Below, piece after piece: positions 11,406 through 64,000 of a DNA stretch of 64,000 nucleotides. Position 1 is the first letter of the stretch; each line of letters starts with the position of its first letter. A program made the translations under genes and the position numbers. The DNA comes from a virus: positions 21,444 to 85,443 of the IMG/VR virus record IMGVR_UViG_3300033153_006243; one strand, 5' to 3'. The notes under the pieces were generated by a model. It was given only the letters and a program-made list of their open reading frames with translations, searched no databases and was not told the origin of the DNA.

Positions 11406-11442
11406 AAGTTGATGCGGGGTTACCGAGCTAAGGAGGATTCTT

Positions 11443-23027: not shown

Positions 23028-23873
23028 GTGGCAGTAGGTACTTATGCGTTGACTACGCTGGATAACCTAAAGCTCCATCTCGAAATCTCCGCCTCCTCTG
23101 ATGATTCGCTATTAGAGGATCTGATAGACAAGGCTACGGACATGATCGAGCGGGAAACACACCGCTTGCTCATGTCCCGTAGTTACACGAAGGAGCAGTA
23201 CAACGGGAATGGATGGGGTGATCTTATCCTCCGTCAATATCCCGTGACCGCCGTAGCTAGGCTAGCAATCGGGGAGGCTACGGCCCTGACTATTAAGGGG
23301 ACTACGGCAAGCGTTACACAGGCGCTCGTCAACGTGACCTCTACGGCAGTAAACTGCATCGAGGTAGCTTCAACGACGACGACGAACGAGATCGACTTCG
23401 CGACTTACGCGACGCTGGCGGATGTGAATACTGCGATCAACGCGCTTGCGAATTGGTCATCGACGGTGGTCTCGGCCTATTCCGGGTTTGTCTCTTCGGA
23501 ACTTATTCAGCAGGGCGGGCTTAACGCGAGGAACGGGACGGCAGTATCTCTCCTGATTCCCAACCGGGGGGAAAACAGTTTTGACGTAGACTGGGATAGG
23601 GGAATAATCTCCGTCGATTCCGGGTTCACGAAGGGGGAAAGGATCTGGATTGATTACACAGCGGGGTATTCGACTATTCCCGACGCGCTGGAGCAGGCAT
23701 GTATTGACCTCGCCTCGTCGCTTTATCATAGCAGGGATAAGGATCTCGGCGTAGCGTCTGAGAAGATAGGTGACTATTCCTATTCCCGCGCATCAGGAGT
23801 AGGCAGCGTGGACATTCCCGATAGAGTGAAAAGGGCACTTGGGCCGTTTACGAAATACACACCGTTCGGATAA
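23028..23873 (+). CDS. Head-tail connector protein (gp6-like)
   Basis: 281 residues. The N-terminus (LTTLDNLKLHLEISASSDDSLLEDLIDKA in parts) is the helical gp6/gp15-type adaptor pattern, and the C-terminus (IPDALEQACIDLASSLYHSRDKDLGVASEKIGDYSY in parts) is its usual second half. A beta-rich insertion lies between them (about residues 85-190). It joins the portal to the tail-completion proteins. GTG start with GGAGGTG upstream. Confidence 0.8.
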   Translation: MAVGTYALTTLDNLKLHLEISASSDDSLLEDLIDKATDMIERETHRLLMSRSYTKEQYNGNGWGDLILRQYPVTAVARLAIGEATALTIKGTTASVTQALVNVTSTAVNCIEVASTTTTNEIDFATYATLADVNTAINALANWSSTVVSAYSGFVSSELIQQGGLNARNGTAVSLLIPNRGENSFDVDWDRGIISVDSGFTKGERIWIDYTAGYSTIPDALEQACIDLASSLYHSRDKDLGVASEKIGDYSYSRASGVGSVDIPDRVKRALGPFTKYTPFG

Positions 23874-23898
23874 GGGAATTTCTTATGGGGCACTCTAC

Positions 23899-25209
23899 AT
23901 GAAACAGCGGACTTCGGGCGTTACGAAAACCTTGGGGCGGCACAAGAATAGGCCGAGGAGACTGAGGGGGAAGAAATTCCACCTCTTCCTTCGTTCCCAT
24001 CAGGCGGATGACTACTGGCCCCTGTATAGCGAATTGCTAAAAGAGGGGGCGATCCCGCAGTTTATCGAGATACAGCGGTCGCGTCCGGACGACGATGCGA
24101 ACGCAGCGTTCCTCGCGAATAAAGGAATCCCGCTATTCAGTACGACGTGGGAGGAGCCGCAGGAGTTCTCGGCGAGTATGGTCCAGGAGAACTATAACGG
24201 TTTCGACATCGAGGGGATAACCAAGTTCGCCCGTTGGCGCTGGCGTAGAGGCGGAGCCAAGATGGACTATATCATCCTTGCCAGAACCAACTGGATTCTA
24301 CACCGATACGAGAAGTTCTTTAAGGAGAATAGACCGGACTACATAGTGACCTGGGGGGATATGGCCCATGACTCCGCAGCGATCAAGGCGCTTGCGGACA
24401 AACTGAAAATCCCCCATTTGCTTTTCGAGGGGGGGTTCCTGCCGAACTCTATGTGCCTTGACGGCGGGGGGATGTATTACACGCCGGAAAGCGACTGGAA
24501 TGGGATATGGGAAAACCAAAGCGAACCTACGGCGGACGAGAGGATACGAATTAAGAAGCTGATGGATCAGTGGCGGCAAAAGGATATGTCGAAATACAAT
24601 AACAAGACCGCCTTTACCGAAATCGAAACGGGGGTAGATTGTAGGGCACTGGCCCCGAAGGGTAAGAAGATCATGCTTATCGTCTGCCAGACTACTGGGG
24701 ATGCAACGATGTATTTCCCACGGGTCCTGGTGGATAACAAGCTCTCCCTGACGAATCTCGTTCTTCGGACGATGGCGGGGATGACGGACTGGCATATTTT
24801 GGTCAAGCCCCATCCCCATGAGCGGCACGACGACTTGGCTTTGATGGTTAATCCCTACGAGGGCATCGACATTATCCCAAAGGCGTCGCCGCATTCCGCT
24901 TTGAGGGCGGCAGATATGGTTATTACGATTAACTCGACGATGGGATTCGAGGCGTTGGGGTACGGAATCCCGGTGATAACCTTTGGGGACAACTTCTATA
25001 CGGGAAAGGGGCTGACATGGGATATAAGGCGGGCGGATAGGCGACTGAAGGAACAGCTTCGTACTGCAATAGATCAGGCGAAGCCGCCAGATATGAACGA
25101 AGTGTACTCCCTGTTTAATCTAGTCGCGTATAAGTTCCTATTCCTCTTCGGCTATAACAACGGGAGGCTGATAGATGCAGCCAAAAGCGCTCGTCAACAT
25201 TGTAGGTGA
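23899..25209 (+). CDS. Capsule-synthesis glycosyltransferase (KpsC/KpsS-like)
   Basis: 436 residues. The C-terminal half shows the Capsule_synth pattern: WHILVKPHPHER, then ADMVITINSTMGFEALGYG and PVITFGDNFYTGKGLT. KpsC and KpsS transfer Kdo from CMP-Kdo to a lipid in group 2 capsule assembly. The N-terminal half has a GT-B-like domain (IPHLLFEGGFLPN). No signal peptide. The ATG at 23899 avoids overlap with the connector gene; an earlier ATG at 23839 is possible. The gene interrupts the head-tail genes and overlaps a GT4 gene by 35 nt. Confidence 0.72.
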   Translation: MKQRTSGVTKTLGRHKNRPRRLRGKKFHLFLRSHQADDYWPLYSELLKEGAIPQFIEIQRSRPDDDANAAFLANKGIPLFSTTWEEPQEFSASMVQENYNGFDIEGITKFARWRWRRGGAKMDYIILARTNWILHRYEKFFKENRPDYIVTWGDMAHDSAAIKALADKLKIPHLLFEGGFLPNSMCLDGGGMYYTPESDWNGIWENQSEPTADERIRIKKLMDQWRQKDMSKYNNKTAFTEIETGVDCRALAPKGKKIMLIVCQTTGDATMYFPRVLVDNKLSLTNLVLRTMAGMTDWHILVKPHPHERHDDLALMVNPYEGIDIIPKASPHSALRAADMVITINSTMGFEALGYGIPVITFGDNFYTGKGLTWDIRRADRRLKEQLRTAIDQAKPPDMNEVYSLFNLVAYKFLFLFGYNNGRLIDAAKSARQHCR

Positions 25210-26143
25210 GACGATCAATGGGTGGATTTTCAGGGCAATGGCCGACGCCATCGCGAAATCTGCGGAGAAGTTCGAGGTACGGATAACCGAGAAGCCCGTT
25301 TCCGATGCAGACCTATACCATTTCTTCCGCCCCCAAGAGATGAACATGCTCCTCTCCGGCGGATGGGAGGGAAGGGCAGTGACGACGCTTCACGGGTTCC
25401 TTCCGGGAGCTACGGACTTTAAGACGTGCGAGCTGGCCTATTCCCAGGCGGAAAGGGTTATCTGCGTCTCCTTGGGCTGTAGGAACTATCTAGTCGAAAA
25501 TGGAATCCCTATGCACAAGACGGAAGTTATACACGCGGGGGTAGATCACGAGAAATTCAAGATGTTCTCCTGGCCAGCTAACCACTTTACGATTGGGGTC
25601 GTCGGTCGCCTATATCCCTTCCACGGGAGTATTGTAGACAATAAGGGGGGTAAGCTCGTCTTGGAGGTAACAAAAAGGCTAAAGAGTAGGCTTACCGACC
25701 TTATGCTCTTGATAGTCGGGGAGGCGTGGGGTCCCCTCTGTAATTCGCTTGCGAACCTTCCGGCACCCTTCGAGTTTTGGAACCGGGAATTGAACTGTAA
25801 CTATGATCACTACCCCATGCTCTATAACCGAATGGACTGCCTACTTGTCGCGTCGAAGCACGAGGGAGCCCCCGTTCCCGCATACGAAGCGATGGCCTGC
25901 GGGAGGCCCGTCGTAGGTCCGAGGATAGGCACTCTCCCTGAAATTGTAGAGGATGACAAAACCGGATACCTCGTTGACCGCGACCCGGAACAGATGGCGG
26001 ACGCGCTACTGAAGATCGCTAAGGCACGGGGAAGATGGGCGAAGCGCAACTTCTCCTTCTGTCAGAATAAGGTTAAGGAATTCACGTGGGACAACTGGGG
26101 AAGGATGCATGAGGAAGTATATATGGAGGCCCTAGATGCCTGA
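25175..26143 (+). CDS. Glycosyltransferase family 4 (paralogue)
   Basis: 322 residues with DLYHFFRPQ near residue 46, VICVSLGCRNYLV, VIHAGVDHEKF, GVVGRLYPF and the donor-site block SKHEGAPVPAYEAMACGRP near residues 226-245. It resembles the GT4 enzyme at 11850-12806 along its length, so one phage lineage probably duplicated or acquired both. It overlaps the KpsC/S-like gene by 35 nt and the next gene by 8 nt. Confidence 0.85.
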   Translation: MQPKALVNIVGETINGWIFRAMADAIAKSAEKFEVRITEKPVSDADLYHFFRPQEMNMLLSGGWEGRAVTTLHGFLPGATDFKTCELAYSQAERVICVSLGCRNYLVENGIPMHKTEVIHAGVDHEKFKMFSWPANHFTIGVVGRLYPFHGSIVDNKGGKLVLEVTKRLKSRLTDLMLLIVGEAWGPLCNSLANLPAPFEFWNRELNCNYDHYPMLYNRMDCLLVASKHEGAPVPAYEAMACGRPVVGPRIGTLPEIVEDDKTGYLVDRDPEQMADALLKIAKARGRWAKRNFSFCQNKVKEFTWDNWGRMHEEVYMEALDA

Positions 26144-32050: not shown

Positions 32051-32677
32051 ATGGGAACAGCGGCAGTAATTGGCAATGGCGCGGGAATGCTAAAGGAGGA
32101 GAGGTTGGGGGGGCTCATAGACTCCTTTGACGCCGTAGTCCGCGTGAACTGGTATCGCATTAGGGGCTACGAGGAATTCGTCGGCTCCCGAATAGACTAC
32201 TGGGTTACTGATCTTCGTCCCGTAAAACACGGCCCGCCGGAGAATCTTGATCAGATCAAGGAGGTTTGGATCTACCCGTTCTACGAATTCTCGCCGGAGA
32301 CCCATCAAGGCCACATCAAGTTCTGTCCCGATACGGAAATCGTTTCCAACAAGAAGTTCTATATGTGGACGTATGGCTTCATTCCAGGGAAAAGGTGGCC
32401 GTCGAATGGGTTTGGCGCACTGATGTATACCTTAACGAGGCTGAAGCCCTCTAAGCTCCTTTTAGCCGGGTTCGATTCCCTTCTCGACCCTACCGTTGCG
32501 TATACCTACTACTACGGTAAAATCGGCGTCAGTTCTAGGGAGGGAACCGGATTTGATATAGCACACTCGAACCATAGCCTTAAGGACGAGAATAGGGCAT
32601 TTACAGAATTCACCCAAGATGGATATAGAGAAGAATGGAGGCGTAACGGATGCCAGCTCTTGATCTCTCAGTCGTAA
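32051..32677 (+). CDS. Sialyltransferase-like glycosyltransferase (GT29 family), second copy
   Basis: 208 residues. It matches motif L well: AAVIGNGAGMLKEERLGG, DSFDAVVRVNWYRIRGYEE, VGSRIDYWVTD; motif S is WPSNGFGALMYTLTRL and LLLAGFD; the VS-like segment is SNHSLKDENRAF. Donors in this family are CMP-activated ulosonic acids. It is more like eukaryotic-type GT29 than the other copy in its first 50 residues. It overlaps the GT2 gene by 28 nt and sits between tail-tip and tail-hub genes. Confidence 0.78.
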   Translation: MGTAAVIGNGAGMLKEERLGGLIDSFDAVVRVNWYRIRGYEEFVGSRIDYWVTDLRPVKHGPPENLDQIKEVWIYPFYEFSPETHQGHIKFCPDTEIVSNKKFYMWTYGFIPGKRWPSNGFGALMYTLTRLKPSKLLLAGFDSLLDPTVAYTYYYGKIGVSSREGTGFDIAHSNHSLKDENRAFTEFTQDGYREEWRRNGCQLLISQS

Positions 32678-33444
32678 TCTCCACGATGGGAAGGCCAAGG
32701 CTATTCGACCTCTGCTTAAGATCATTGGTAATGACGGAAATGAATCCGTCCCGATGGGAGATTGTCGTAATTGACGACGGGAGCCTCCCGCTAGATAAGG
32801 ATCGGAACCGTGCTATAGTCAACTGGGTACGGGCGGAATCTCCCGTTGCCATCTCGTATTTCTACCGCTCGATAAACATAGGTAGGCCGAACAATGTCGC
32901 GCTGCCGAGAAACTGTGGGCTTAGAAAGGCTAGGGGGAAATATATTGCCTTTGTAGACGGAGATTGCGTATTCGTCAGCGATGTGATTCGGCGGGCGATG
33001 GACTGGATTAAGATGCTGGAGGAGACCGGCGTCCCTACGTTCATGACAAGCGGGGATTGGGATAGGATATCAAAGGATTCAGGAGGGCGCTTCCATCGGA
33101 ATATGTCCATCGGAAATGTCTCCTGTTCGCATAGGGGGGCGACCTCAAGCGTTCCGTTCGGCCCCTGGTTCTCCGTTGACCGCGAGGTGCTGCTACGGAT
33201 CAACGGATTCGACGAGAGGTTTAGTACCTACGGCGGCGAGGACGAGGATATAGTATCGCGGCTAATGCGACTGCACTACCGTCCGTTCCGGGATACCCAG
33301 GTAATAGCGATTCATCTATATCATGATCCCGGAATAGCAGGGCAGGATAAGGAGCAGCACCAAAGGCAGAAGGAATGGATTCGCGAAAAGACCAACGTCC
33401 GTAACGAGGGGGTAGAATGGGGAATTTTATGCCTACCGAAATAG
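32650..33444 (+). CDS. Glycosyltransferase family 2
   Basis: 264 residues with GT-A features: LSVVISTMGRP, IVVIDDGSLPLD, the metal-binding FVDGDCVFV (about residues 101-109) and GFDERFSTYGGEDED, as in chondroitin-synthase and galactosyltransferase-like GT2/GT7C enzymes. It would add a hexose or hexosamine. It follows the GT29-like gene in the same operon. Confidence 0.85.
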   Translation: MPALDLSVVISTMGRPRLFDLCLRSLVMTEMNPSRWEIVVIDDGSLPLDKDRNRAIVNWVRAESPVAISYFYRSINIGRPNNVALPRNCGLRKARGKYIAFVDGDCVFVSDVIRRAMDWIKMLEETGVPTFMTSGDWDRISKDSGGRFHRNMSIGNVSCSHRGATSSVPFGPWFSVDREVLLRINGFDERFSTYGGEDEDIVSRLMRLHYRPFRDTQVIAIHLYHDPGIAGQDKEQHQRQKEWIREKTNVRNEGVEWGILCLPK

Positions 33445-44201: not shown

Positions 44202-44672
44202 TCATAACGTCAGTAGCGCTTCCCTAAGCTCCATCTCTATCTTAACCATTTCCCTCCGTGAGATACCAAGCATATCCCTCATCGTTGTCCTAATCGTCTT
44301 CGTTCTTTTCGTCCCCCTTGTTCCCGCCCATTCATTCATCGTCTTAGCCGTATGGAGAACCTTTCGGGCGATAGGGGATAGGTCCACTTCCGCCAGCCAC
44401 TTTTGCTCCCATATCCCTTCCAGGATTTCGCAGTCCTCATCAGAGGTCCGGGGCAGCCTCATGCTCTTCTGCCTTAGCTTCTGCTTCAGGAGAAATACGA
44501 GAAACGTAGTGAACTTCGCCCCCCGGTTCTCGTCAAACTTCTGCCCGGCTAGGAGATAGATAAGCACTCCCTCCTGGATAAGGTCCTCCACCTCAAGCAG
44601 GGAGGGAAAGGCGGCGACCTCTACGGCCTCCTTGACTATCAGGCCCATTACTTCGTCAAGGGTCGGTATCAT
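44202..44672 (-). CDS. Sigma-70 region-2-like protein
   Basis: 156 residues. The N-terminal half has the region 2 pattern (EVEDLIQEGVLIYL, then FDENRGAKFTTFLVFLLKQKLR in parts), which binds core RNA polymerase and the -10 box. The C-terminal half could hold a region-4-like helix-turn-helix (RDMLGISRREMVKIEMEL). It may redirect host RNA polymerase to phage promoters. It overlaps the QueD-like gene by 4 nt. Confidence 0.7.
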   Translation of the reverse strand: MIPTLDEVMGLIVKEAVEVAAFPSLLEVEDLIQEGVLIYLLAGQKFDENRGAKFTTFLVFLLKQKLRQKSMRLPRTSDEDCEILEGIWEQKWLAEVDLSPIARKVLHTAKTMNEWAGTRGTKRTKTIRTTMRDMLGISRREMVKIEMELREALLTL

Positions 44673-51308: not shown

Positions 51309-52253
51309 TTACCCCAAAACTGGACTGAAAGCCGGGGCCGAGGGAATCATCCGTACCAATTCCCCCCTTCCTAGCGAGTCGGGGTCCTCGCCTTCAGGGA
51401 GCCGCAATACACGGACATCGGAGACAAACGGAAGCATCTCCTTAGCCGCCTTTAGCGCGTATCCGTAAGCGTCGGAATCCCACGCAAATACGAGCTGCAT
51501 CGGGCGGAGAACCTTTATGAGCAGGAGCCTTCTCACCGGGGAAAGGTTCGTCCCAAATGTAGCGAAGCTCCCCTCCCCGATACGCCACTGATCAAATACG
51601 CCCTCCACAATGATTACCCTCCGCACCCTTTCCTCCGGATAGGGATAGAGCATCTCATTTATTTCTTTGAACCCATTAGCAGTGAGCCAAGAAGCCCGCG
51701 CCCTCCCAGATACATCCCTTCCCTGAAATCCGCGAACCTCCGTTCCCCTATAAATCGGGACGATGAGCCGGTATCCCCAGCGGCCCCCCGTAGGACAGTA
51801 GAGAACATTATGGTCGATACAGGTCTTGAGGGTGATTCCCCGTCTCTCCAGGAATGCGCGGAGCCATCGATTTTTCCGGATAGTTCCCGCGGAAACGGGG
51901 ACGGCCTCGTTGGGAATTTTCTCAACGGGATCGCGGGGCTTAGAGATTAGCTGTCGGTCAAGGATTTCCCTAACCTTCGATAGCGCGTCCTCCTCCGCGA
52001 CGGGGGCCTCAACCCCCAGGAATCCGAGGTACTCGTCAACCGGGATTCCCAGGGCCTTCGCGAGGCGGGACGGAGTTCCCCGACTCCCGCATTTCCAGCA
52101 TGAGAAATTTCCGGGGGGGAATACCCCACAATGAAACCCGGAATCATAGCAGAACGGACAGGCAATGCCGACGCAGCGGAGGGTAACATCCTTAGTGAGG
52201 GAGGCGGGTATCCCCTTATGCTCGAAGAATTCGGCGAGGTCCTTGCGGGTCAT
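51309..52253 (-). CDS. DnaG-type primase
   Basis: 314 residues. A CHC2-like zinc domain (CPFC at 32-35, HC at 41-42, CWKC at 52-55) is followed by the primase core and a TOPRIM domain with VIIVEGVFDQW (about 207) and FAWDSDAYG (about 257). It makes RNA primers with the DnaB-like helicase encoded nearby. It is short compared with bacterial DnaG, lacking the C-terminal helicase-binding domain, as is common in phages. Confidence 0.9.
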   Translation of the reverse strand: MTRKDLAEFFEHKGIPASLTKDVTLRCVGIACPFCYDSGFHCGVFPPGNFSCWKCGSRGTPSRLAKALGIPVDEYLGFLGVEAPVAEEDALSKVREILDRQLISKPRDPVEKIPNEAVPVSAGTIRKNRWLRAFLERRGITLKTCIDHNVLYCPTGGRWGYRLIVPIYRGTEVRGFQGRDVSGRARASWLTANGFKEINEMLYPYPEERVRRVIIVEGVFDQWRIGEGSFATFGTNLSPVRRLLLIKVLRPMQLVFAWDSDAYGYALKAAKEMLPFVSDVRVLRLPEGEDPDSLGRGELVRMIPSAPAFSPVLG

Positions 52254-52260
52254 CTTCGCC

Positions 52261-53556
52261 TCATATAAACGGACGGATTACGGAATCCTCTGATACGGGG
52301 GGCCGCTTCCTCTTTGCGTATGGATTCCTAATCCGTCGATTCGCCATCTCGCAGTAATCCGGGTTGAGGTCTAGGCCGATAAATCTTCTATTCAGTTTCC
52401 AAGCAACCACACCCACCGTACCTGAACCAGCAAAGGGGTCGAGGACGAGGCAGGGATCAAGTTTCTGATCCGGCGGGGGGATATAGTATTTTTGCATTTT
52501 CGTAACCCACTGCACCTCAAAATCGACCACGCTATCCCATACCTTGATGTGCCTTTCCTTCCACTCGCCCTCACAGGAACAGGTGGGTTGCCATCCATTG
52601 GCGTGACCACGCCTAACGGGGCTATCATAATCTCGTGGTGACTTTTCTTTCTCCATCACCCTCTCTTGCGGAGCCCCACATTTCTGGCAGCACCCCTTCT
52701 CGCTCGTTCCCGCCTTAATCAGAGGCATTACCAATCCCTCTGGAAACGTAGCGAAGTGGGCCTCCTTGAATCCCGCCGGGTTTACAATTAGTGCTAACGG
52801 GTCGCCCCCCTCATTCCATAGGCCCCGCCACGACTCGAAGAACCAATCGGAATTCCGGCGGCTACGACCAGAGGACGGCCCCCAACGTTCTCCCATCTCC
52901 TCTACGGCATCCGGTTCCGAGCGCTTTCCGCCCATCTCTACGCCATGCCAACCGGATTTACACCGTTCAACCGTAGAACCCTTCAGCCTTACTTTGACTG
53001 CCTCCCCATCATAAAAGTATCGGGCGCTTTTGGTTAGCAGGAAAATATATTCCACGGCGCTCGTCGGCCTATCCTTACAGCTCTCAGGCATTGCCGATCT
53101 TTTGAGCCACGGGATCATGCTCCGTAAATACCAGCCGTCCGCCTGGAGAGCTATCGCAAGCCTCGCTGGAATCATGCATAGATCTTTAGGCTTGAGGCTG
53201 TCCACGAAACGACGCTGCTTACCCTTAAAAGCTTTTAGGGTTGCCTGTGAGTCAAGCGGGCCAACCTTATTGCCCCCGCCGTGCGTAGAGGCGGCAGAGT
53301 ACGAATCGCCCATCACCAACCACAGCGTCCCGTCCTTCCTAAGCACCCGCCTTACCTCCCGGAACACCTTAACCATCTTCTCGATATAGGCTTCCAGGGT
53401 TTTCTCAAGGCCATATTGCCCCTCTACATTATACGATCTTAACCCCCAATAAGGGGGAGAAGTTATGCAGCACTGAACACTTTCGCCCGGCAGCTTTGCC
53501 AAGCCTTCCAGTACGTCGAAACAATGTACCTTCCCTAGTTCCAAATTCAATTTCAT
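52261..53556 (-). CDS. DNA methyltransferase (SPPY class)
   Basis: 431 residues, beta class: motif IV TSPPYW (residues 32-37) first, SAM-binding LDPFAGSGTVG (about 378) last. SPPY favours cytosine N4 methylation. A zinc finger (CCQKCG … CSCEG, about residues 287-330) sits between the two and may aid target recognition. Unlike the enzyme at 605 it has no inserted gene. It overlaps the helicase gene by 4 nt. It may guard phage DNA from host restriction. Confidence 0.88.
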   Translation of the reverse strand: MKLNLELGKVHCFDVLEGLAKLPGESVQCCITSPPYWGLRSYNVEGQYGLEKTLEAYIEKMVKVFREVRRVLRKDGTLWLVMGDSYSAASTHGGGNKVGPLDSQATLKAFKGKQRRFVDSLKPKDLCMIPARLAIALQADGWYLRSMIPWLKRSAMPESCKDRPTSAVEYIFLLTKSARYFYDGEAVKVRLKGSTVERCKSGWHGVEMGGKRSEPDAVEEMGERWGPSSGRSRRNSDWFFESWRGLWNEGGDPLALIVNPAGFKEAHFATFPEGLVMPLIKAGTSEKGCCQKCGAPQERVMEKEKSPRDYDSPVRRGHANGWQPTCSCEGEWKERHIKVWDSVVDFEVQWVTKMQKYYIPPPDQKLDPCLVLDPFAGSGTVGVVAWKLNRRFIGLDLNPDYCEMANRRIRNPYAKRKRPPVSEDSVIRPFI

Positions 53557-55106
53557 TTCCTACCCTCCAGATATGAGAATAGTTCCTCCCTAAGATCCTT
53601 TCCTTCCTTGTTAATCGCAAGCATCCGGGAATCGAAGCTCCCCTCCATCAGTAGGTCAATGAATACACAGGTATCTGCCCGCTGTCCTCCCCTTAGTATC
53701 CTCCCCTCTGATTGGTCCCGTAGGATAGCCGAGGGAACGTTGGAATAGTATATCTCAAGACTCGCCACCTGAAGCCCGTCTATCCCTTCCCCCCCGCTCT
53801 GTGGCTGGGCTATCATAATCTGCGCGTCCCCCTTCTCAAATCGTTCCATCCCGATCTCTCTCTCCCTCGTCGGTATCTCCCCACGTAGCGAGGCGAACTC
53901 CGCACCTATCCTATCGCACATCTCCTCCAGCATCCTCCCCTCCATAACGAATCTATGAAAGATAATCACCTGTTCATTCAGTGCCCGGATGAGCTCGGCC
54001 AGGTCGTCTATCTTCGGGTTGGACTTCAGAATTACCTCCTCCCCTTTCGGCCCTATGAACCCCCCGGCGATCTGGAATAGCCGCATCGCCTTCGACTCCG
54101 GGGAGAACTTCCATGCCTTATCCCCCAATTCCGCCTTGAGTTCCTCGGAGACGGATCTAAAGAGCCTCCATTGTTCCTTACTCGGCTCCACCCATCTCGT
54201 TTGGTAGATAGCTGGCGGGAGGCCCAGCATTTCCTTCCGCTCATAGGTCAGCACCGAATCCCTTAGCCTACCCATAATTTCCCTTTTCGCCCCGTCCTTC
54301 GGATACCAGTTCCACCCCATATAGTCCTCGTCAAAATATTTACTGCGAAAGGCGAAGAAGTTATAGCCAAGAGAAGCTCCCCCGTCCAGTATGTTCATCT
54401 CGGACCATAAGTCCAGCGTAGCCCGATTCACCGGGGTCGCGGTTAGTTCAATTACCCACTTCACTCTTTGGGATAGCTTTGCCGCGATTTTCGTCTGGAT
54501 AGCATTATAATTCCGTAGATGGTGTGCCTCGTCTAGGATAAGCCCATCTATCCCGATATCGTCGAAAAGGGACGGGTCAATGGCGTATTTCCTAGAGACT
54601 TTACTATCCGGCGATGTTCTTCTTCGTATTATGCTATGCTTCGTCTCTACCTTCGTACCAAACATATTCTTGAGGGACTCGTAATTGGTAACGATAAGAT
54701 TTACGGAGGATTTCTCAAGCTGCCCCCGCTTCTCCTCCCCCGTCCCAACAAGTTCCTCGATTTCTACCCCCGCCTTCGCCGCCTGTTTTCGCCACGTACG
54801 CTTTACAGGATTCGGGCAGACAACCAATATCTTTCTACAACCCCATAGCCCCATCATCCAAATCGAGGTAAGAGTTTTTCCCGAACCTATCCCGTGCCAG
54901 TAGGCAATGTGGTCCCTGCCGTCCACCCCAAAGGCCATCGAAACGCGCTGATGATGATAGGGATCAAGGGTAAAGTCGATTCCCTTGAATTCCCTTTCGA
55001 GTTCCTCCGGGGCAATCCGTTTGTAATCTACGGCATAAAGCCTCTCTTTAGGAACGGATTCCCCACAGACTTCCTTCAGGGTTTCCTTTAGCCAGTCATC
55101 ACTCAA
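53553..55106 (-). CDS. SNF2-type superfamily 2 helicase
   Basis: 517 residues with HGIGSGKT (Walker A, about 72-78), LILDEAHHLRN (motif II, about 197), TATPVNR (motif III) and a C-terminal helicase domain ending SEGRILRGGQ (motif VI). SNF2-like translocases in phages help replication restart or recombination. It overlaps its neighbours by 4 and 8 nt. Confidence 0.9.
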   Translation of the reverse strand: MSDDWLKETLKEVCGESVPKERLYAVDYKRIAPEELEREFKGIDFTLDPYHHQRVSMAFGVDGRDHIAYWHGIGSGKTLTSIWMMGLWGCRKILVVCPNPVKRTWRKQAAKAGVEIEELVGTGEEKRGQLEKSSVNLIVTNYESLKNMFGTKVETKHSIIRRRTSPDSKVSRKYAIDPSLFDDIGIDGLILDEAHHLRNYNAIQTKIAAKLSQRVKWVIELTATPVNRATLDLWSEMNILDGGASLGYNFFAFRSKYFDEDYMGWNWYPKDGAKREIMGRLRDSVLTYERKEMLGLPPAIYQTRWVEPSKEQWRLFRSVSEELKAELGDKAWKFSPESKAMRLFQIAGGFIGPKGEEVILKSNPKIDDLAELIRALNEQVIIFHRFVMEGRMLEEMCDRIGAEFASLRGEIPTREREIGMERFEKGDAQIMIAQPQSGGEGIDGLQVASLEIYYSNVPSAILRDQSEGRILRGGQRADTCVFIDLLMEGSFDSRMLAINKEGKDLREELFSYLEGRK

Positions 55107-56079
55107 TTCCTACCCTCATCAGGTCTTGAATATCAATCATGCCTACGGGCTTACCACCGCCATCGACAACGGGGATCTCGTCCACTTTATGTTCCTTCAT
55201 AAGGGCATAGGCATCAAGGGCGCTATGGCCTAAAGAAATAGTAATGGGATTCTCCGACATCGGTTTTCCAACATTGGGGACAACGTGGGTTCCTTTCACC
55301 AGGTTTGATTCTTCGAGGTAGGAGATTATCCATCTTCTTACATCTCCATCCGTCATTATTCCTTTCAATACCCCGTCAAGATTGACTACACAGATAGCCC
55401 CCCCTTTAGCCTCTGTAATCTTCTGGAGGGCCTCCCGAATCGAACACATACTAACACAAGTAGCAAACTCCTTCCGCATCACATCGGAAGCCTTCAGGTT
55501 CCTTAGCCCTATTCCCCCGCCTGGATGGGTTTCGCAGAATTTATTCTCGTCGATTCCCGCCCGCCTCATTAGGCAGATACAGATTGCATCCCCTACCGCC
55601 ATCATCGCGGTAGTCGATAGGGAGGGAATAATGGGGTCCTTTATCGGCCCCGTCCAAAGAAGGATAGATGCCCTCCGCGCAAGACGGGATTCCCTATTCG
55701 TAGTTACGACAAAGATAAACATCACCGGTATCCTCTTCCGTAGGTACTCCATTAAATCTACTAACTCTTTCGTTTCCCCGGATGCGGAGAAAATGAAGAG
55801 GATATCATATATAGTTAATGATGCAACGTCCCCATGTTTCGCTTCAGTCGGGTGGAGGAACGGCCCAGTCGAATATCCCAGGCTCGCTAAGGTTGCCCGG
55901 AATTTTTCGGCGACGAACCTAGATTTACCTACACCAGAAACGTAGATGATCCCCTCGTTTTCCTCGATGCTTTTCACTACCCCCTCGATAGCGTTCGGAA
56001 GGCTTACCATGCCCGCCATCTCCTCCATGATTTCACTTAGCCCCATAAAGTAGTTCTCCGTTATTTTCGCGACGCTCAT
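55099..56079 (-). CDS. Arabinose-5-phosphate isomerase-like protein (KdsD/KpsF)
   Basis: 326 residues, the size of bacterial KdsD. An N-terminal SIS sugar-isomerase domain (VSGVGKSRFVAEKF, HPTEAKHGD, SASGETKELVDL, PSLSTTAMMAVGDA) is followed by two CBS domains (about residues 200-326). KdsD turns ribulose 5-phosphate into arabinose 5-phosphate, the first step to Kdo. The HPTEAKHGD segment carries the family's active-site His. Start chosen at the TGATG overlap. It lies among replication genes, an odd place. Confidence 0.85.
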   Translation of the reverse strand: MSVAKITENYFMGLSEIMEEMAGMVSLPNAIEGVVKSIEENEGIIYVSGVGKSRFVAEKFRATLASLGYSTGPFLHPTEAKHGDVASLTIYDILFIFSASGETKELVDLMEYLRKRIPVMFIFVVTTNRESRLARRASILLWTGPIKDPIIPSLSTTAMMAVGDAICICLMRRAGIDENKFCETHPGGGIGLRNLKASDVMRKEFATCVSMCSIREALQKITEAKGGAICVVNLDGVLKGIMTDGDVRRWIISYLEESNLVKGTHVVPNVGKPMSENPITISLGHSALDAYALMKEHKVDEIPVVDGGGKPVGMIDIQDLMRVGIE

Positions 56080-56378
56080 CACATCCACCCCCATTCTACA
56101 TAACTCCACGGCCTAGTTAAATACATCTGTAACGCAACGAGGGACATTTCCATCAACGGCTCCGGGTCCCTGAATACCGCGAGATGCGCTTCTCCCTCCC
56201 TCAATCTCTCTTCCTCCTCTTCGGTTATATCCCCGATAACGAACCGTCGCGGGAACGCCTCCCCGAAAAATGTTAGCATTCTCGCCTTACCGACATCCTC
56301 GATAATCCAATCCTTTCCCTCGATTCTCCTCGTCGAGGAAAGTGCCTCTCTAATCCTTTTCCACACCTTGTCGTTCAT
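56079..56378 (-). CDS. Hypothetical protein
   Basis: 99 residues, mixed alpha/beta (IIEDVGKARMLTFFGEAFPRR in parts), unrecognised. It overlaps the DnaB-like gene by 29 nt and shares a base with the next start. Confidence 0.5.
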   Translation of the reverse strand: MNDKVWKRIREALSSTRRIEGKDWIIEDVGKARMLTFFGEAFPRRFVIGDITEEEEERLREGEAHLAVFRDPEPLMEMSLVALQMYLTRPWSYVEWGWM

Positions 56379-57735
56379 GGGGTTTACTCCATAAGGCGAA
56401 TTGTCCCGTCTCGAATTGCCTCCTCACGACGCACTTGCCAAACTGGGGGCCTGAACGGTTCGCCGAAACGTATAGAATGGCCTCTTCGCTCGCATTATCC
56501 CGTTGCTGCCTATTCTGCCAGATGGCGATACCGAGGTCGATGTTCCCCGCCTTACGAATATCCTCGGCGAAATCGTCCATTTTTGGTTCGCCCGACGATA
56601 CTGCCTGCCGCCGCACTTGGGATGCAGTCACCATCAGGAGATTCCTTTCGTCGGCCACCCGCTTATGCCAGATATACAGTTCGTTAAGGCGGTGACGTAA
56701 GTCCTCATTGCTCTTCGATGTCGTACTCATCAGGTCCGCATAATCGTTCAGGATTACGTCCGGCGTAAAGTTCTCAAACGTCTCAAGCTGGTTAAGGTAT
56801 CTCTCGATCTCCTCTGGCGTCGCCGCACCCATCGCATATTTCTTTAGGATTAGTCTCCCCTCGTGCGTAAGGATTTCCTTTCGCTTCTTCTTCACTGCAT
56901 CCTGATCAAATATAGTAGGTCTGAACTCCCGCCTTCGGATATATCTCCCCCTATTATCCTCCCCAAGCTCCCAATCGAAGAATTCAATCTCTCTTCCCTC
57001 CTCAGTGGAAACAAAGCTCCCAAAGGCCATATCGTATCTATCCTCCATCTCCTCCATCGTCATCTCATGGGAAATGTGAAGTACCTTCAAACCCCGTAGC
57101 ATCGCGTACTTCCCGATATGAATCAGGAACCATGACTTCCCCGACTTAAACGCCCCCTGTATACAAACGAGCTTCTTCCTCTTAAGGTAACCTATCATCT
57201 TATCCAGGTCGTCAATCCCCCAGGACATTAGCTTATCAGTCTCTTCCTTCTTGAATCTAATTGGTATTTTCGTAGGGGAATAGACGAGCCCCTTATCGTC
57301 CGTCCCCACCCCGGACTTCAGCGCCTTATACATCAAAAGCTGGGCTTCTACAAACTGCTCCTTCGAGAGAAGTTCCGCAAACTTAATTGAGGCCGACTCA
57401 AGCTCCCTTAGCCGAACGTAGTCGCTATACCTCTTAAGAATATAGTTTCGGTTAGGCGGGCCGAGTGCCTCCAGCTTGGCGACGTAGGAAAGGAGGAGTT
57501 CTTTTTCGCTATTCGGCATATCGAGGGCCTCGCGGACGATCTCGTCCTCGATATGCTGTTTGGGGGCCGCCCCGCAGGCGTCGAAGAACTGGATGCATAG
57601 CTTAATTAGTGTCCTCGCGGCGGCGGAGGTGAACTGCTCCGGCTTAAGGGTTTGCCTTATGGTTTTCAGAAAGTCGGCGTCGGAGATGCATAGCTTAATC
57701 ACCGAGTCCTGATAAGTCTGTTCAAGAACCTTCAC
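56350..57735 (-). CDS. DnaB-like replicative helicase
   Basis: 461 residues: an N-terminal helical domain (about 1-110) and a RecA-type ATPase with IQGAFKSGKSWFLIHIG (Walker A, about 190-206), ISHEMTMEEMEDR, a Walker B-like DVILNDYADLM, and VTASQVRRQA (sensor). It unwinds DNA at the fork and works with the primase. Confidence 0.88.
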   Translation of the reverse strand: MKVLEQTYQDSVIKLCISDADFLKTIRQTLKPEQFTSAAARTLIKLCIQFFDACGAAPKQHIEDEIVREALDMPNSEKELLLSYVAKLEALGPPNRNYILKRYSDYVRLRELESASIKFAELLSKEQFVEAQLLMYKALKSGVGTDDKGLVYSPTKIPIRFKKEETDKLMSWGIDDLDKMIGYLKRKKLVCIQGAFKSGKSWFLIHIGKYAMLRGLKVLHISHEMTMEEMEDRYDMAFGSFVSTEEGREIEFFDWELGEDNRGRYIRRREFRPTIFDQDAVKKKRKEILTHEGRLILKKYAMGAATPEEIERYLNQLETFENFTPDVILNDYADLMSTTSKSNEDLRHRLNELYIWHKRVADERNLLMVTASQVRRQAVSSGEPKMDDFAEDIRKAGNIDLGIAIWQNRQQRDNASEEAILYVSANRSGPQFGKCVVRRQFETGQFALWSKPHERQGVEKD

Positions 57736-58452: not shown

Positions 58453-59643
58453 CTATTCCCCCTTAAAAAATACAGGCATTACTACATATTTATATCTCCC
58501 ATCGTCCATCCGAACCGAAGCAGGAAGCGTTGGCTCCTTTACCATGAACGGAATAGTCGTCTCGTCCAGCTCCTTTTTCACCGCGGCTAGGAAGTCCTCA
58601 AGGAAATGGGGGTTAAACCCGATCTCCATTGGACTACCTTTATACGTGCCGCCGGGAATCAACGCCACCGCCTTCATCCCTTCGCTATCCTCTGCATCAA
58701 GATTGATTCCCTTTCGGCTTAGCTTAAACCTGACAGCAGGAGAATCCCGGTTCACTGCCACCGAAACCGCATCAAGAGCATCCCCCAATGCAGCAATCGG
58801 AAGGTTTACACAGATATAACCCTTATCTATGCCGTCGAATACTGTCTGGCATGGGGGGAATTGCCCTTCGATAGTACGGGTGGCCACCTCTCCCTTCGGC
58901 GTCTGGAAGACAACTACGTTTTCCAAGTCGGGGAATATCCTAACTTCCCCCTTTCCGTCAACCATTCCCCGAAGCGCCTTAATCGCCTGGATCGGCAAGA
59001 TGGCCTCGAATGGAACTACCTCCCTCTCTATGGGCTTCTTTCCGTCATCTAGAAGGTTTCTCTTCAGAATCGAAGAAGTAGGGTTCAGCTCGTATCTCGC
59101 AATCCTCTTCATATCCGTCGCAGTCAGGCAGATTTTCTTACCCTTCTCGACACTAAGGAGGAGGCCGTTCAGTGCATATCTCTTCCGTTCCCTTGCCATT
59201 GCAAAACTCGTGAGCCGGATACCCTTGAGAATCTCCGCCCCCGGAACTACAACTGATGATCCTTCCGCTTGCGGGACTTCGGGATAGTCGGCGGGATCGT
59301 CCGCCAGAATCTCCACTTCCCCGCCGCCTGCTACATCCAGGAGGACACGGCTTCCCACAGCTTCGTCATCCGGGGTACGAATAGTGATAAGCCCCTTCGC
59401 CGCACTAGCCGGTCCCAGGAGTCCTATGTAAGGGCAGGCGATGTTTCCCTCTTCGACGATCTCCGCGTCTAGATTCACCCGTATCCCTACCTCTAGATCG
59501 GTCGTAGTCGCCGTTATCTTCCCTCCCCCCGCCTCCAGAAGTACGTCCGCCAATATCGGCTTGAAGTGGTTCTTCTTGGAAATTACCGGCCCCAATAGGG
59601 ATAACGACTTCTTCAACACCTTAGAATCCACGACGATCTTCAT
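58453..59643 (-). CDS. DNA polymerase III beta sliding clamp
   Basis: 396 residues with the three-domain clamp pattern: an N-terminal SLLGPVISKKNHFKPILADV, a middle RYALNGLLLSVEKGKKICLTATDMKR (in parts) and an ending KYVVMPV in place of the bacterial VMPMRL. It forms a ring on DNA and tethers the polymerase. A second, divergent clamp-like gene lies at 61246-62304. Confidence 0.9.
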   Translation of the reverse strand: MKIVVDSKVLKKSLSLLGPVISKKNHFKPILADVLLEAGGGKITATTTDLEVGIRVNLDAEIVEEGNIACPYIGLLGPASAAKGLITIRTPDDEAVGSRVLLDVAGGGEVEILADDPADYPEVPQAEGSSVVVPGAEILKGIRLTSFAMARERKRYALNGLLLSVEKGKKICLTATDMKRIARYELNPTSSILKRNLLDDGKKPIEREVVPFEAILPIQAIKALRGMVDGKGEVRIFPDLENVVVFQTPKGEVATRTIEGQFPPCQTVFDGIDKGYICVNLPIAALGDALDAVSVAVNRDSPAVRFKLSRKGINLDAEDSEGMKAVALIPGGTYKGSPMEIGFNPHFLEDFLAAVKKELDETTIPFMVKEPTLPASVRMDDGRYKYVVMPVFFKGE

Positions 59644-59838
59644 CTATTCCTCCTTCTCTATAATTTCTTCCGTGTAATCAAACCATGACGGGAACTCAAA
59701 ATTCCAAGCGTGCATAAAATCGGCCTCTCCATTTGCGATCCGTCTTGCCTTAATCTTCGCAAATTTCTCGTTCCTTGCCCGTACTTCGATCCTTCGATCA
59801 CAATGAATATTAGTTGAGACCTTAACGAGATACTTCAC
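59644..59838 (-). CDS. Small hypothetical protein
   Basis: 64 residues, basic first half and acidic end, directly before the clamp gene with one base between stop and ATG. Similar to short proteins of the form MKYxVKV… seen in phages. Function unknown. Confidence 0.5.
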   Translation of the reverse strand: MKYLVKVSTNIHCDRRIEVRARNEKFAKIKARRIANGEADFMHAWNFEFPSWFDYTEEIIEKEE

Positions 59839-59840
59839 TT

Positions 59841-60005
59841 CTACTCCTCCTTTGCTATCACGATTTTCCGAATCCAGAATCTAAGTTTCATTCTCAAGGC
59901 GTCCAAGTCCATCCGCTCCCCCGGTGTCAGGCCGTTCTCCTCGTCGTCTGACTTATTACGGAGGAAAGTATGTATCCTCCTAAGCGTCCATAGCCTATCT
60001 CTCAT
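59841..60005 (-). CDS. Small hypothetical protein (54 aa)
   Basis: 54 codons starting MRDRLWTLRRIH with AAGGGAG upstream and ending 2 nt before the next gene. Helical and charged. GGGGTATAAT stands about 20 nt before the ATG. Confidence 0.5.
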   Translation of the reverse strand: MRDRLWTLRRIHTFLRNKSDDEENGLTPGERMDLDALRMKLRFWIRKIVIAKEE

Positions 60006-60032
60006 AGAACTCCCTTTCACCTTATTATACCC

Positions 60033-60818
60033 CTAGAATCTACTTCCGGGGAAAAGTTTCTGGAGATATTGTACGAAATATGAACTCCAGAATTGCGAAC
60101 TCGACAGCATCCCAAACCGAACCAGGCCGGGGGCGGCATAATCAATTAGAGCACGAAATACTATTCCCACCAGTTCGTCCTCATCCGTCGGGACCTTCCC
60201 GATATAAACCTTCAGCCGCTTTGCCGCTATGACAAAATTTCGATATTCATAGGATGGGTTCGACAATTCTAATGTCTTTCCAGATACTAACGGGCCGTAG
60301 GATGCTATCAGTTTCCCGGTCAGTTCGGGATTCTCGTCCCGTATCGGCTGCGGATCCTCCCTCTCCCACCATAGCTTTTTCCCCTCCTTCTGCGCCTTGA
60401 GGATCGCTTTCAAAAATGATTCTAGATTCTTGTATCCGTGGTTCATCACAGGACTTCCCCAAAGATGCCTTCCCCCCCGGCACACATCGAGATAGATATA
60501 GATTCTCTCGATAATCTCCGTATGGCTGAAGGAAAGCAGGGCTATCCGCAATCCCTTTCGGAAGGCCGCGGAATCCTCCTGTTGCTGGTTCCTGGTCTCC
60601 TTTGGCGATAGGGGACGGGATAGTTCGTTCCAAGCGGATAGGATGGTACATTCATCCTCCGTTAGCGGTGGCTGCTTCTCCTCCCTCTTCCTACCAAGAA
60701 TCTTTCGGGGACCCCTCGATTCTACCGGGGTGATCTTGATTCTACCCATCCCCGCCCACCCACGAATGAAGGCTTCAACGGGAATCTCTATCTCAAGCCT
60801 TATTTTCTTTTTGTCCAT
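60033..60818 (-). CDS. Hypothetical protein, possibly replication-related
   Basis: 261 residues, first gene of the minus-strand replication block. The middle (HLWGSPVMNHGYKNLESFLK) recalls helicase-loader or replication-initiator proteins of phages, but I cannot place it in a family. AGGAGG lies just before the ATG and GGTATAAT lies directly upstream of it. Confidence 0.45.
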   Translation of the reverse strand: MDKKKIRLEIEIPVEAFIRGWAGMGRIKITPVESRGPRKILGRKREEKQPPLTEDECTILSAWNELSRPLSPKETRNQQQEDSAAFRKGLRIALLSFSHTEIIERIYIYLDVCRGGRHLWGSPVMNHGYKNLESFLKAILKAQKEGKKLWWEREDPQPIRDENPELTGKLIASYGPLVSGKTLELSNPSYEYRNFVIAAKRLKVYIGKVPTDEDELVGIVFRALIDYAAPGLVRFGMLSSSQFWSSYFVQYLQKLFPGSRF

Positions 60819-60836
60819 TATTTTTTCCTCCTATTA

Positions 60837-61245
60837 TACCATAAATGGCTTCAACTTCATAAAACTGAACCCCACATATATATCCCTATATACCCTTCTT
60901 TTCTCCCCCCTGATTTCCCCCGATTTCCACCACCCCACCCCCCCTCTAAAGAGGGGGGTGGTGGGATGGATTGGAAAGACACGGGGAGGAATATTCAGGT
61001 TGGGGGGAGGAAAGGAAAAAGAGGGGATATGAAAATATAGAAAAATAGAATGGAAAAAATCTAGACTATTAGTATTGAAATAGATATTCACCCGGCAAGC
61101 CTTTAGGCTAGAGAAGTTTATCCGTCCATCTTGTTATACCAGAAAAATTTTCCATCCGTTCGGATTTTTTTCCTACGGATGGATTTATTCTTGGGTATAA
61201 TCAAGTGTAGGGCAACTCTTCCCCGATTCCTTTTGGAGGTGGCCG
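60837..61245. other. Divergent intergenic region, candidate origin or control region
   Basis: Transcription diverges from here. Near its centre (60930-60975) a C-rich/G-rich inverted repeat (CACCCCCCCTCT with AGAGGGGGGTG) forms a long hairpin. CCATCCG and CGGATGG (61152-61182) flank a T-run. GGGTATAAT at 61193 and GGTATAAC on the minus strand at 61133 are possible -10 boxes; no -35 boxes are evident. Two sliding-clamp genes and other replication genes surround it. Confidence 0.5.
61193..61201 (+). promoter_or_regulatory. Candidate -10 box of the second clamp gene
   Basis: GGGTATAAT about 45 nt before the clamp-like gene, with no recognisable -35 box. The same GGTATAAT core recurs before several phage genes, so it might be read by a phage-modified polymerase. 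Confidence 0.4.
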
Positions 61246-62304
61246 ATGAAGATTGATCGAGCAAAGTTAGTCGGAGTTCTTGAATCTCTATCCCCCCTAG
61301 CATCCGCCGATTTGCTGACGGCGTTCAGCCGACATGCGGCGTTCCTTGGGGACAGGGTGCTTGCTACGGATACGATGGTATGGGGAGAGATGAATTCCCC
61401 GGTTGATATGAGGATTGCCCTTGACGTTCCGAAGTGGCTTGCCCTTCTCAAGTCCCTGAAGAAGCATAAGAGCGTCGAGATCGCCGTAGATGAAACGGGG
61501 AATCGAGTAGAATTAAAGGCCCCTCGGCATTCCTCGAAGCATATCTCCACAGTTTCCGTTGATGCCTTTCCTGAACGGCCTTCTCCGTCGGACAAGGCTT
61601 CCCCTTGGGATATGGATGCCGAGGAGGACGAGAGTACATTTTGCATCGGCCTTGAGAAGTGTGCGGCCCTTGCGGCTCAGGCAGGCGGGGAATACGGGGC
61701 TATCTACCTCTCCGAGGATGGGATGTACGCGACAGATCGCTATCGCGCCTGCTGGTTCCCGTTTGCCTTCCCGCATCTCAAGGGGGGGAAGTGGGTGGTA
61801 CTCCATCTTCGGTTCGTAGATATGCTGAGGAAGTGGGGCGTCCCGGAGAGTCTAAGGCTAGAGGGAGGGGTTATCGAGGCGGCATACGAAGATAAGAAAC
61901 TTTCCGGTAGGTTTAGGGAGGAGAAGTTCCCCGAACCCCTGATTAAGCTTCTCCATGAGGGAAGTAAGTCTGAGTTCAGTCCCTACCCCGACGATTTGGG
62001 GGGGGCATTATCGCGGCTTGCGTTGGTGAGGGCGGACACGAAGGAGGAATCGGGGCTTAAGATTAGCGGGGGTGGCTGGAGACTGGTACACCAGGGCGTC
62101 GCCGGAGAGGTGAGCGAGAATCTCATAGGGAAATATGATGTTGAGGCTCCGATTGATCTGGAGATATATTCCGGGTTCTTCACCGAGGCGATAGGGAGGA
62201 CGGATCAGTGGGTAGTGGTAGATTCGGGGGATTCGGCGAAATTCTACTTCCGGGACGAGGATACCGGATTTATAGAAATGGTGGCGGTTGGAAAGGGAAA
62301 GTGA
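61246..62304 (+). CDS. Second sliding-clamp-like protein
   Basis: 352 residues. N-terminal MKIDRAKLVGVLESLSPLAS, VDMRIALDVPKWLALLKSL and GAIYLSEDGMYATDRYRACWF have the look of beta-clamp domains 1 and 2. The third domain is shorter and divergent. It could be an alternative clamp, or a non-ring partner of the polymerase encoded just downstream. GGAGGTGG precedes the ATG. Confidence 0.65.
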   Translation: MKIDRAKLVGVLESLSPLASADLLTAFSRHAAFLGDRVLATDTMVWGEMNSPVDMRIALDVPKWLALLKSLKKHKSVEIAVDETGNRVELKAPRHSSKHISTVSVDAFPERPSPSDKASPWDMDAEEDESTFCIGLEKCAALAAQAGGEYGAIYLSEDGMYATDRYRACWFPFAFPHLKGGKWVVLHLRFVDMLRKWGVPESLRLEGGVIEAAYEDKKLSGRFREEKFPEPLIKLLHEGSKSEFSPYPDDLGGALSRLALVRADTKEESGLKISGGGWRLVHQGVAGEVSENLIGKYDVEAPIDLEIYSGFFTEAIGRTDQWVVVDSGDSAKFYFRDEDTGFIEMVAVGKGK

Positions 62305-62307
62305 TTC

Positions 62308-64000
62308 GTGCCTATTAAGAGTTTACTAAGTGCCTGTGAGGTATGTTCCCTGAAGAACTCTTGCCAGAGCCCTAAGATCGATCCCTACGGCGAAGGTGGG
62401 AGGAGGATTCTCATCATTGGGGAGGCCCCTGGTAAGCAGGAGGATGCACAGGGAATACCCTTCGTCGGCCTTTCCGGTAGGAAGCTGAAGAAGAATCTTA
62501 GAGCTGCGGGCATCGATCTCGATAGGGACTGCGTGAGGACGAACATAGTCCAGTGTTTCCCCGGAAATTCCTCCGTGAACTTCGATCAGGCGAGGAAGTG
62601 CTGGGAAAGGTTGGAAAAGCAGATAGAGGAGGCCAATCCCGATCTTATCATTGCCCTTGGGGGTAAGTCTGTTTCCTTCCTATTGGACGAACTGTGCGGG
62701 TACTCTGCGGGGGGGATCAATATCTCAAGTCTTCGGGGACAGATTATTCCGGTAAGGAAACTGGATTGTTGGATGCTCTGTGAGTTTCATCCGGCATATC
62801 TTCTTAGGCAGGAGGACCCCGTACTTGACAGACTGATGGTTAGGGATTTCGGGGAGGCCGTCGGGAGGATGAAGGAACCACTACCGGAACTTCTTGATCC
62901 AAAGGGATTCGAGATAATTGAATTGGTAGGGCGGGCGGAAACTGTTTTCGACGGGCTTATCTCTATGGGTTCTAAGGTTTCATTCGACTATGAGACTACG
63001 GCGCTATCCCCGTTTGTAGCGGGAGCGGATATTCTCGGTGTCGGGTTTGCTAATAATCCTAACGGGGGGTATTTTCTTCCATTGCTTTTGGGGAAGTGGT
63101 CGAAAGGGGACTATAAGGAGATAGAGAGATTGTGGAGGGGGTTCCTTTCCTCCGGCCTCGAATTCGTAGCACAGCATCAGATGTTTGAGCGGATATGGTC
63201 GGTGGAGAAGTTCGGGGTGAACCCCAATATCGAACTTGATACTATTCTCCTTGCCCATATTAAAGATGAGCGGCGGGGGATTAAGGGACTTGGGTTCCAG
63301 GTGTTCTCGAATTACGGAGATATCTATAAGGGCAGGATGGATAGGAAGGCAATAGTCTCCGAGACACTGGAATCGGTAGCGGAGTATTGCTGTTTGGATG
63401 CCCGTTATACCCTACGGCTTGCGGGGGATTATCTTTCGGGGATGGATGTAGAGGATATCAAGGCTTATGGGGTGTTTCAGAATTCGGTTCCCGTCTTGGC
63501 GGAGATGACGGCGAACGGGGTGAAAATTGATCTTGATGTGATGTCCCGGATATCTGACGAAGTTCAGGGGAAGAAGGATTCCCTTGAAAAGCGGCTAAAA
63601 GATTCCCCGATAGTCAAACCCTTTACGAAGAGGGGAAAGCAGTTTAATCCCGCATCCTCCCCGAATATTTCCGAATTGCTTTATAAGATACATGGGCTGG
63701 TTCCGGTTAGAAAGACGGCGAAGGGGGAACCATCTGCGGCTACACCCGCACTCAACCAGCACCTTCTCGATAGAGATCTAGATAAGGGTATGAGGGAATT
63801 CATCGAGCTTATCCTTCAGTATAAGAAGATGAGCAAGATGGAGTCTACATATACTGATAGCTTTATCAAGGCAGCAGATCAGGACGGGATTCTACACCCG
63901 AACTTCCTCCTACATACGACGGAGACGTATAGAAGCTCGTCTACCGAGCCTAATATCCAACAAGTTCCGAGGAGGGATGATGAGTTGAGCTTCGACCGTA
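62308..64000 (+). CDS. Uracil-DNA glycosylase / 3'-5' exonuclease / DNA polymerase I fusion (partial)
   Basis: At least 564 codons from GTG 62308, running off the window. Residues 1-190: family 4-type uracil-DNA glycosylase with Cys pair [28 protein letters not shown], and HPAYLL. About 210-400: 3'-5' exonuclease with [11 protein letters not shown] (D-x-E) and later [11 protein letters not shown]. From about 400: family A polymerase start with [11 protein letters not shown] near the end. The enzyme copies DNA and could remove or sense uracil. It follows the second clamp gene by 3 nt. Similar fusions are known in some large phages. Confidence 0.88.

Follow-up and report, generated by a model that had tools for sequence, protein, structure and literature searches.

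Why would a virus encode two sliding clamps? The question is raised by a 64,000-nucleotide stretch of DNA (hereafter the window) comprising bases 21,444 to 85,443 of an 85,443-base IMG/VR record (IMGVR_UViG_3300033153_006243) of an uncultured bacterial virus. An earlier note on this DNA had described a standard beta clamp and a divergent clamp-like protein whose genes, here called clamp 1 and clamp 2, face away from one control region. The explanation that we favour, with about even confidence, is that these are two beta-type clamps of different lineages with a division of labour between them. The idea of two clamps with possibly separate jobs is supported, but the roles are reversed: the divergent protein is the ordinary phage clamp, and it is the standard-looking protein that has been added. 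The genes central to this argument are as follows.

58453-59643, minus strand: clamp 1, a bacterial DnaN-type sliding clamp of 396 amino acids (Pfam, phrog_947, PDB clamps, structure model and profile D, described below)
61246-62304, plus strand: clamp 2, a phage-type sliding clamp of the UDG-PolA operon, 352 amino acids (phrog_947, structure model and profile P)
62308-63999, plus strand, continuing beyond the window at L002:2-739: UDG-PolA fusion DNA polymerase (Pfam UDG 5.4e-22, DNA_pol_A 3e-18)

Both clamp genes encode true three-domain sliding clamps of the beta type. The AlphaFold2 model of clamp 2, made on a 61-row alignment, has a predicted local distance difference test (pLDDT) score of 90.5 and a predicted template modelling score of 0.88. 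All 50 Foldseek matches listed for this model are clamp or clamp-complex entries with bacterial beta clamps in the top rows, and the top rows of a VIA comparison are likewise all bacterial beta clamps (Caulobacter clamp, Z 28.9, root-mean-square deviation [rmsd] 2.6, 337 of 352 residues). The clamp 1 model (pLDDT 82.9) has the three-domain clamp fold over its whole length (VIA Z 36.8, 358 residues, rmsd 2.4). Both models align full length with three-domain bacterial clamps, and neither is a T4-type trimer subunit of two domains. The possibility that 61246-62304 has a fold other than a clamp was checked, and the predicted fold instead matches bacterial beta clamps end to end. Fold and family together rule out clamp 2 as a non-clamp protein or, as had also been proposed, a modifier of the host clamp.

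Clamp 2 is the normal replisome clamp of a conserved phage operon that contains clamp, UDG-PolA and clamp loader. It matches phrog_947 (phage processivity factor) at 5.2e-15 over residues 2-329 in a protein-level PHROG scan, and no Pfam family is matched at an E value of 1 or below, including the DNA_pol3_beta family of bacterial-type clamps. Only 3 bases lie between its stop and the polymerase start, in agreement with the earlier placement of the two genes side by side, and the operon continues with the loader (phrog_5846, 1.5e-55), a gp32-like single-stranded DNA-binding protein (SSB), UvsX/RecA, and RuvC-like, SbcC-like and SbcD-like proteins. Scanning viral sequences for polymerases related to this one yielded 80 loci, in which clamps were sought with a profile iterated from clamp 2. 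We judged those loci where a clamp was found or at least 1.3 kb of upstream sequence was available, which left aside 9 of the 80 with too little upstream sequence. In 65 of the 71 judgeable loci the polymerase is preceded, on its own strand, by a clamp (within 500 bases in 46, further off in 19), and with this profile no clamp was detected in the available upstream sequence of the other 6. Our assignment of clamp 2 is based on this frequency and on the similar gene order in Vibrio phage vB_VpaS_MAR10 (Mardecavirus) and Edwardsiella phage ZHS, which share with the window virus the succession of clamp, polymerase, loader, RecA, RuvC-like and SbcD-type genes. Their annotated clamps, of 352 and 364 amino acids respectively, likewise lie directly upstream of the polymerase. 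However, only one clamp was found in the whole record of each, and clamp 2 is only 23% identical to the MAR10 clamp over 243 columns. A tblastn search with clamp 2 against 50,697 phage records gave no match.

Clamp 1, judged by its sequence, is an extra clamp of the bacterial DnaN type and the unusual one of the pair. It carries three Pfam DNA_pol3_beta domains (43.5, 36.2 and 31.7 bits versus cut-offs of 27, 27 and 24.4), matches phrog_947 at 2e-43, and matches PDB clamps by sequence from 6.6e-20. With the E. coli clamp (dnaN, b3701) it shares the three domains and the fold, and it appears to retain much of the pocket that binds client peptides. By alignment, 13 of 23 listed client-peptide positions are identical to those of E. 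coli. Those kept include T172, D173, R176, P242, V247, N320, V360, M362 and P363, as well as an F and the C-terminal VVMP, while the changes include G174M and H175K. Identity between the two proteins is nevertheless 25%, and clamp 1, unlike bacterial DnaN, is not found in a dnaA-dnaN-recF setting. Even the nearest bacterial DnaN sequences are only 28-32% identical to clamp 1, a distance that leaves a recent theft from the host unsupported, and its nearest rows in our tree, an uncultured bacterium and a planctomycete, sit on long branches.

The two classes can be told apart with held-out profiles, one (P) made from 57 polymerase-linked phage clamps and the other (D) from 86 DnaN-type clamps, with the test sequences excluded. 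Clamp 2 scores 91.5 bits with P and 13.3 with D. Clamp 1 scores 198.5 bits with D and 43.3 with P, although D was built from the bacterial clamps nearest to clamp 1 (the best 80 of 575), which favours it in the D score. Control sequences score higher with their own class in 20 of 20 cases (10 rows per class), one phage-type row narrowly so (15.6 versus 13.9). In a tree of 88 of the 149 collected rows, from which 10 phage-type and most bacterial rows were omitted, clamp 1 belongs to a set of 37 rows that also takes in all 32 DnaN rows, three phage clamps and the second clamp of another phage described below (Shimodaira-Hasegawa-like approximate likelihood ratio test, 99). Clamp 2 falls outside this set.

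The make-up of profile D is one of several points that weigh against separate lineages with separate tasks. The branch of clamp 2 (3.03) is among the longest in the tree, and a sister relationship of clamp 1 and clamp 2 is not rejected by the approximately unbiased test (p 0.15; the constrained tree is 24 log-likelihood units worse), so that a duplication inside the phage followed by unequal divergence would still be compatible with the data. Moreover, no client of clamp 1 emerged among the phage proteins, since canonical clamp-binding motifs are not in excess in the 32 examined: a strict motif occurs 0 times (0.2 expected) and looser motifs 1 and 1 times (1.7 and 1.4 expected) in what is a low-power test. 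The clients of clamp 1 may therefore come from the host, or may bind through other motifs.

Among the viral records checked, a phage-type clamp together with a bacterial-type clamp in one phage is a rare combination. Our surveys used a 20-row alignment (A4) that contains both clamps of the window and both of the phage described below. Whole records were searched for 100 viruses gathered around this polymerase, namely 96 from IMG/VR and 4 named phages (of which Pan1 and R5C came in by way of the clamp loader). The first 50 records comprise 46 of the 80 polymerase loci plus the 4 named phages, and the second 50 come mainly from a further scan. A clamp was found in 44 and 37 of these two sets of 50, but two separate clamp genes were present in only one other phage. 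A single-protein search with clamp 1 across the first 50 records gave one weak match, in that same phage. Approached from the other side, a scan for DnaN-type clamps gave 80 viral loci; among 50 of these searched as whole records, all of which had a DnaN-type clamp, none had a second clamp, and the 80 flanks revealed neither a polymerase of the UDG-PolA kind nor a second clamp, apart from a single additional hit in L206 (E 7e-3). These counts include many fragments, and the records are not all independent, as is evident from the near-copy contigs L043/L044, L075/L076, L297/L298 and L309/L310. In addition, searches of the window virus record with phrog_947 and PF00712 found only clamp 1 and missed clamp 2, so second clamps elsewhere could be missed as well. 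Single-protein patterns retrieved no close IMG/VR relatives of clamp 1, clamp 2 or the polymerase, and a literature search for phages with two sliding clamps found none, although most subscription journals were outside its coverage and a prior description is possible.

The one other phage with both clamps is the following.

IMG/VR 3300005264_000019 (G011, locus L072), 57.9 kb: phage with a phage-type and a DnaN-type clamp

Its genes are arranged in the order SNF2-type helicase, DnaB-type helicase, phage-type clamp, UDG-PolA, loader, methylase-like open reading frame (ORF), 150-amino-acid ORF, DnaN-type clamp and primase. The helicase and methylase labels come from reading the sequence, and those of polymerase, loader and primase from Pfam, with the UDG and primase matches below cut-off. 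As in the window virus, a phage-type clamp precedes UDG-PolA and the loader, and a DnaN-type clamp, in this case before the primase, is also present. The first clamp scores 62.5 bits with P and 8.0 with D and is named from its position and this profile, as it has no Pfam or PHROG match. The second clamp scores 9.9 with P and 84.0 with D, and matches PF02767 at 27.4 bits (cut-off 27) and phrog_947 at 3.6e-14; used as a query, it found only its own record. Clamp 1 and this counterpart are only 17-24% identical depending on the alignment, and the second clamp of G011 is located 5 kb from the first, in the same strand and block rather than in a divergent operon.

Two further records had appeared to carry two clamps and were rejected. 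Both matches in G024 come from a single broken phage-type clamp gene, split across two reading frames by a frameshift or a sequencing error (L056:8974-9955). In G126 they are the ends of a single 606-amino-acid ORF upstream of the polymerase (L319:7833-9653), a phage-type clamp with an in-frame insertion. Read by eye, this insertion resembles an intein with an HNH-like segment, starting at Cys and ending in HNC. Two records labelled 'Bacteriophage sp.' from human faeces (L108 and L112; MT837359.1 and MT835476.1) look like bacterial fragments because of their chromosomal-type dnaN neighbours by ORF reading, which are recF in both and dnaA plus gyrase in L112.

How might two clamps be used on the same DNA? 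Clamp 2, given its fold, family and operon position, would confer processivity on the phage's own UDG-PolA and would be loaded by the clamp loader of the same operon. Clamp 1 would then form a second ring on phage DNA, most likely recruiting proteins that clamp 2 leaves unbound, for example host or phage factors whose clamp-binding motifs are of the bacterial style. Ring formation, loading, clients and expression are predictions for both clamps. In E. coli the edge strand of domain I contributes to the ring interface. By alignment this strand has a net charge of -2 in clamp 1, whereas the value is +3 in clamp 2, +3 in the E. coli clamp and, for 82 bacterial clamps, +2.23 (standard deviation 1.36). 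A charge of -2 is also seen in the second clamp of G011, in a stretch that is gappy in the alignment, and in a Salinibacter phage clamp, while two other phage clamps have +3. The charge difference is therefore no more than suggestive. A loss of positive charge at this edge could prevent mixing of clamp 1 with host clamp subunits. A more elaborate version, which we regard as possible but tentative, is a dual-ring replisome in which two orthogonal clamps occupy the same DNA: the phage-type ring would serve UDG-PolA, and the bacterial-type ring, with its pocket largely kept and its changed interface barring mixture with the host clamp, would recruit host clamp-binding proteins or the phage's own sigma-like factor. 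If this is true, such proteins would be brought to phage DNA without any sharing of subunits with the host ring.

Replication clamps determine which enzymes act on DNA, and a phage with both ring types offers a natural test of whether clamp clients can be divided between two rings and how subunit mixing is prevented. The presence of the same pairing in two unlike phages suggests that it is useful.

Other arrangements could account for the same genes. Clamp 1 might be a redundant or decoy clamp of bacterial origin, either titrating the clamp-binding proteins of the host or on its way to taking the place of clamp 2, as its grouping with bacterial DnaN and the retention of much of the client pocket would allow. 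We consider this unlikely, because its distance from the nearest bacterial DnaN shows that it is no recent copy, its GC content at third positions (0.59) resembles that of neighbouring genes, and a second phage keeps the same pairing. Alternatively, both proteins are full-length three-domain subunits and could form a heterodimeric ring with two faces or pockets, the phage polymerase acting on one side and some other factor on the other. The +3 domain I edge of clamp 2 could indeed pair with the domain III edge of clamp 1 (-2). However, the other mixed interface would be negative against negative (-2 and -1), and the edges of clamp 2 itself (+3 in domain I, -1 in domain III) fit a homodimer. 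Moreover, the phage-type clamp has no partner clamp gene in nearly all relatives, and the two genes lie in opposite operons; a mixed ring is thus quite improbable. Finally, an assembly chimera of two viruses would have its junction at the divergent region, between the two operons. This would be very surprising, given that the record has a 44-base overlap (1 mismatch) between its ends, which jointly supply the whole polymerase gene; that gene exits the window at 63999 and resumes at the record start. The primase and the DnaB-type and SNF2-type helicases of one arm also form one plausible set with the polymerase, loader, SSB and RecA of the other, and in G011 only 5 kb separate the two clamp classes.

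A role in transcription, which the earlier note had offered as one option for a second clamp, has some precedent. Late transcription in phage T4 runs through its clamp gp45, as described in PMC2988020, PMC7892883 and PMC9690074, so clamp 1 might activate late promoters in a similar manner through a sigma-like protein encoded in the window:

44202-44672, minus strand: sigma-70 region 2 protein of 156 amino acids, a possible clamp client (PF04542 2.3e-07, 30.9 bits, cut-off 24; phrog_351 7.1e-09)

The T4 system further resembles that of the window virus in having a phage clamp, loader, gp32-like SSB, UvsX-like protein, gp46/gp47-like SbcC/SbcD and small sigma-like protein. Nevertheless, contact of the sigma-like protein with a clamp is only putative, and one clamp suffices for T4, whose single clamp is a trimer of two-repeat protomers according to PMC4858162, in contrast to the two three-domain clamps found here. 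Similar sigma-like proteins were also detected in phages with a single clamp, including MAR10 and ZHS, and in other loci (with an iterated profile, for which drift is possible), and for this reason the sigma-like protein does not explain the second clamp. In G011, the ORF preceding the second clamp had looked by eye like a sigma factor but has no Pfam or PHROG support. We therefore consider a T4-like transcription clamp distinctly unlikely, and a division of labour between the two clamps remains our preferred reading.

Clamp 1 and clamp 2 belong to opposite operons, and that of clamp 1 encodes further replication proteins. The remaining features of this arm and of the intervening region are listed below.

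51309-52253, minus strand: primase, clamp 1 operon (phrog_47 2e-33)
52261-53556, minus strand: DNA methylase, clamp 1 operon (PF01555 4.3e-40)
53553-55106, minus strand: SNF2-type helicase, clamp 1 operon (phrog_62 3.9e-94)
56350-57735, minus strand: DnaB-type helicase, clamp 1 operon (phrog_19 1.6e-51)
59644-59838, minus strand: 64-amino-acid ORF immediately preceding clamp 1 (no match in Pfam or PHROG)
60024-60031, minus strand: GGTATAAT, between the clamps
60033-60818, minus strand: 261-amino-acid protein between the clamps (no Pfam or PHROG match)
60819-61245: divergent intergenic region of 427 bp, between the 261-amino-acid ORF and clamp 2
60833-60840, minus strand: GGTATAAT, just upstream of the 261-amino-acid ORF, facing outwards from the gap
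60926-60943 and 60953-60970: C/G-rich inverted repeat with 18-nucleotide arms, 83% complementary and 9 nucleotides apart
61194-61201, plus strand: GGTATAAT, about 45 bases before clamp 2, facing outwards from the gap

The supposed 400-bp region flanked by both clamps corresponds to the 427-bp gap at 60819-61245, but clamp 1 does not border it directly, being separated from it by the 64- and 261-amino-acid ORFs. The long C/G inverted repeat reported there is present, and the window as a whole contains just 4 close inverted repeats of at least 15 nucleotides, this one included; the gap as a whole folds better than 100 of 100 shuffles (z -4.66). This region is probably a divergent promoter, because copies of GGTATAAT, a -10-like word found 10 times in the window versus 2.5 expected, face outwards from it; none of the tests made here points to an origin. 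Relative to the ORF lists, 5 of the 10 sites are outside long genes, and two of these point outwards from the gap. A general promoter scan found 4 promoters versus 4.0 expected from shuffles, and no terminator-like site was found in the gap. Skew, which had been suggested for mapping an origin, cannot separate an origin from a promoter at this position because the direction of transcription switches at the gap.

Some other genes of this virus also deserve mention. Within the replication operon, at 55099-56109 on the minus strand, lies a protein with SIS and CBS domains that resembles arabinose 5-phosphate isomerase and may relate to sugar metabolism. Read by eye, an ORF at L002:17929-19128 resembles a TnpB/OrfB-type transposase-associated protein, and several ORFs that look like radical SAM and glycosyltransferase types are found amid the structural genes of the window (10002-12806, 23839-26143 and 32650-33444).

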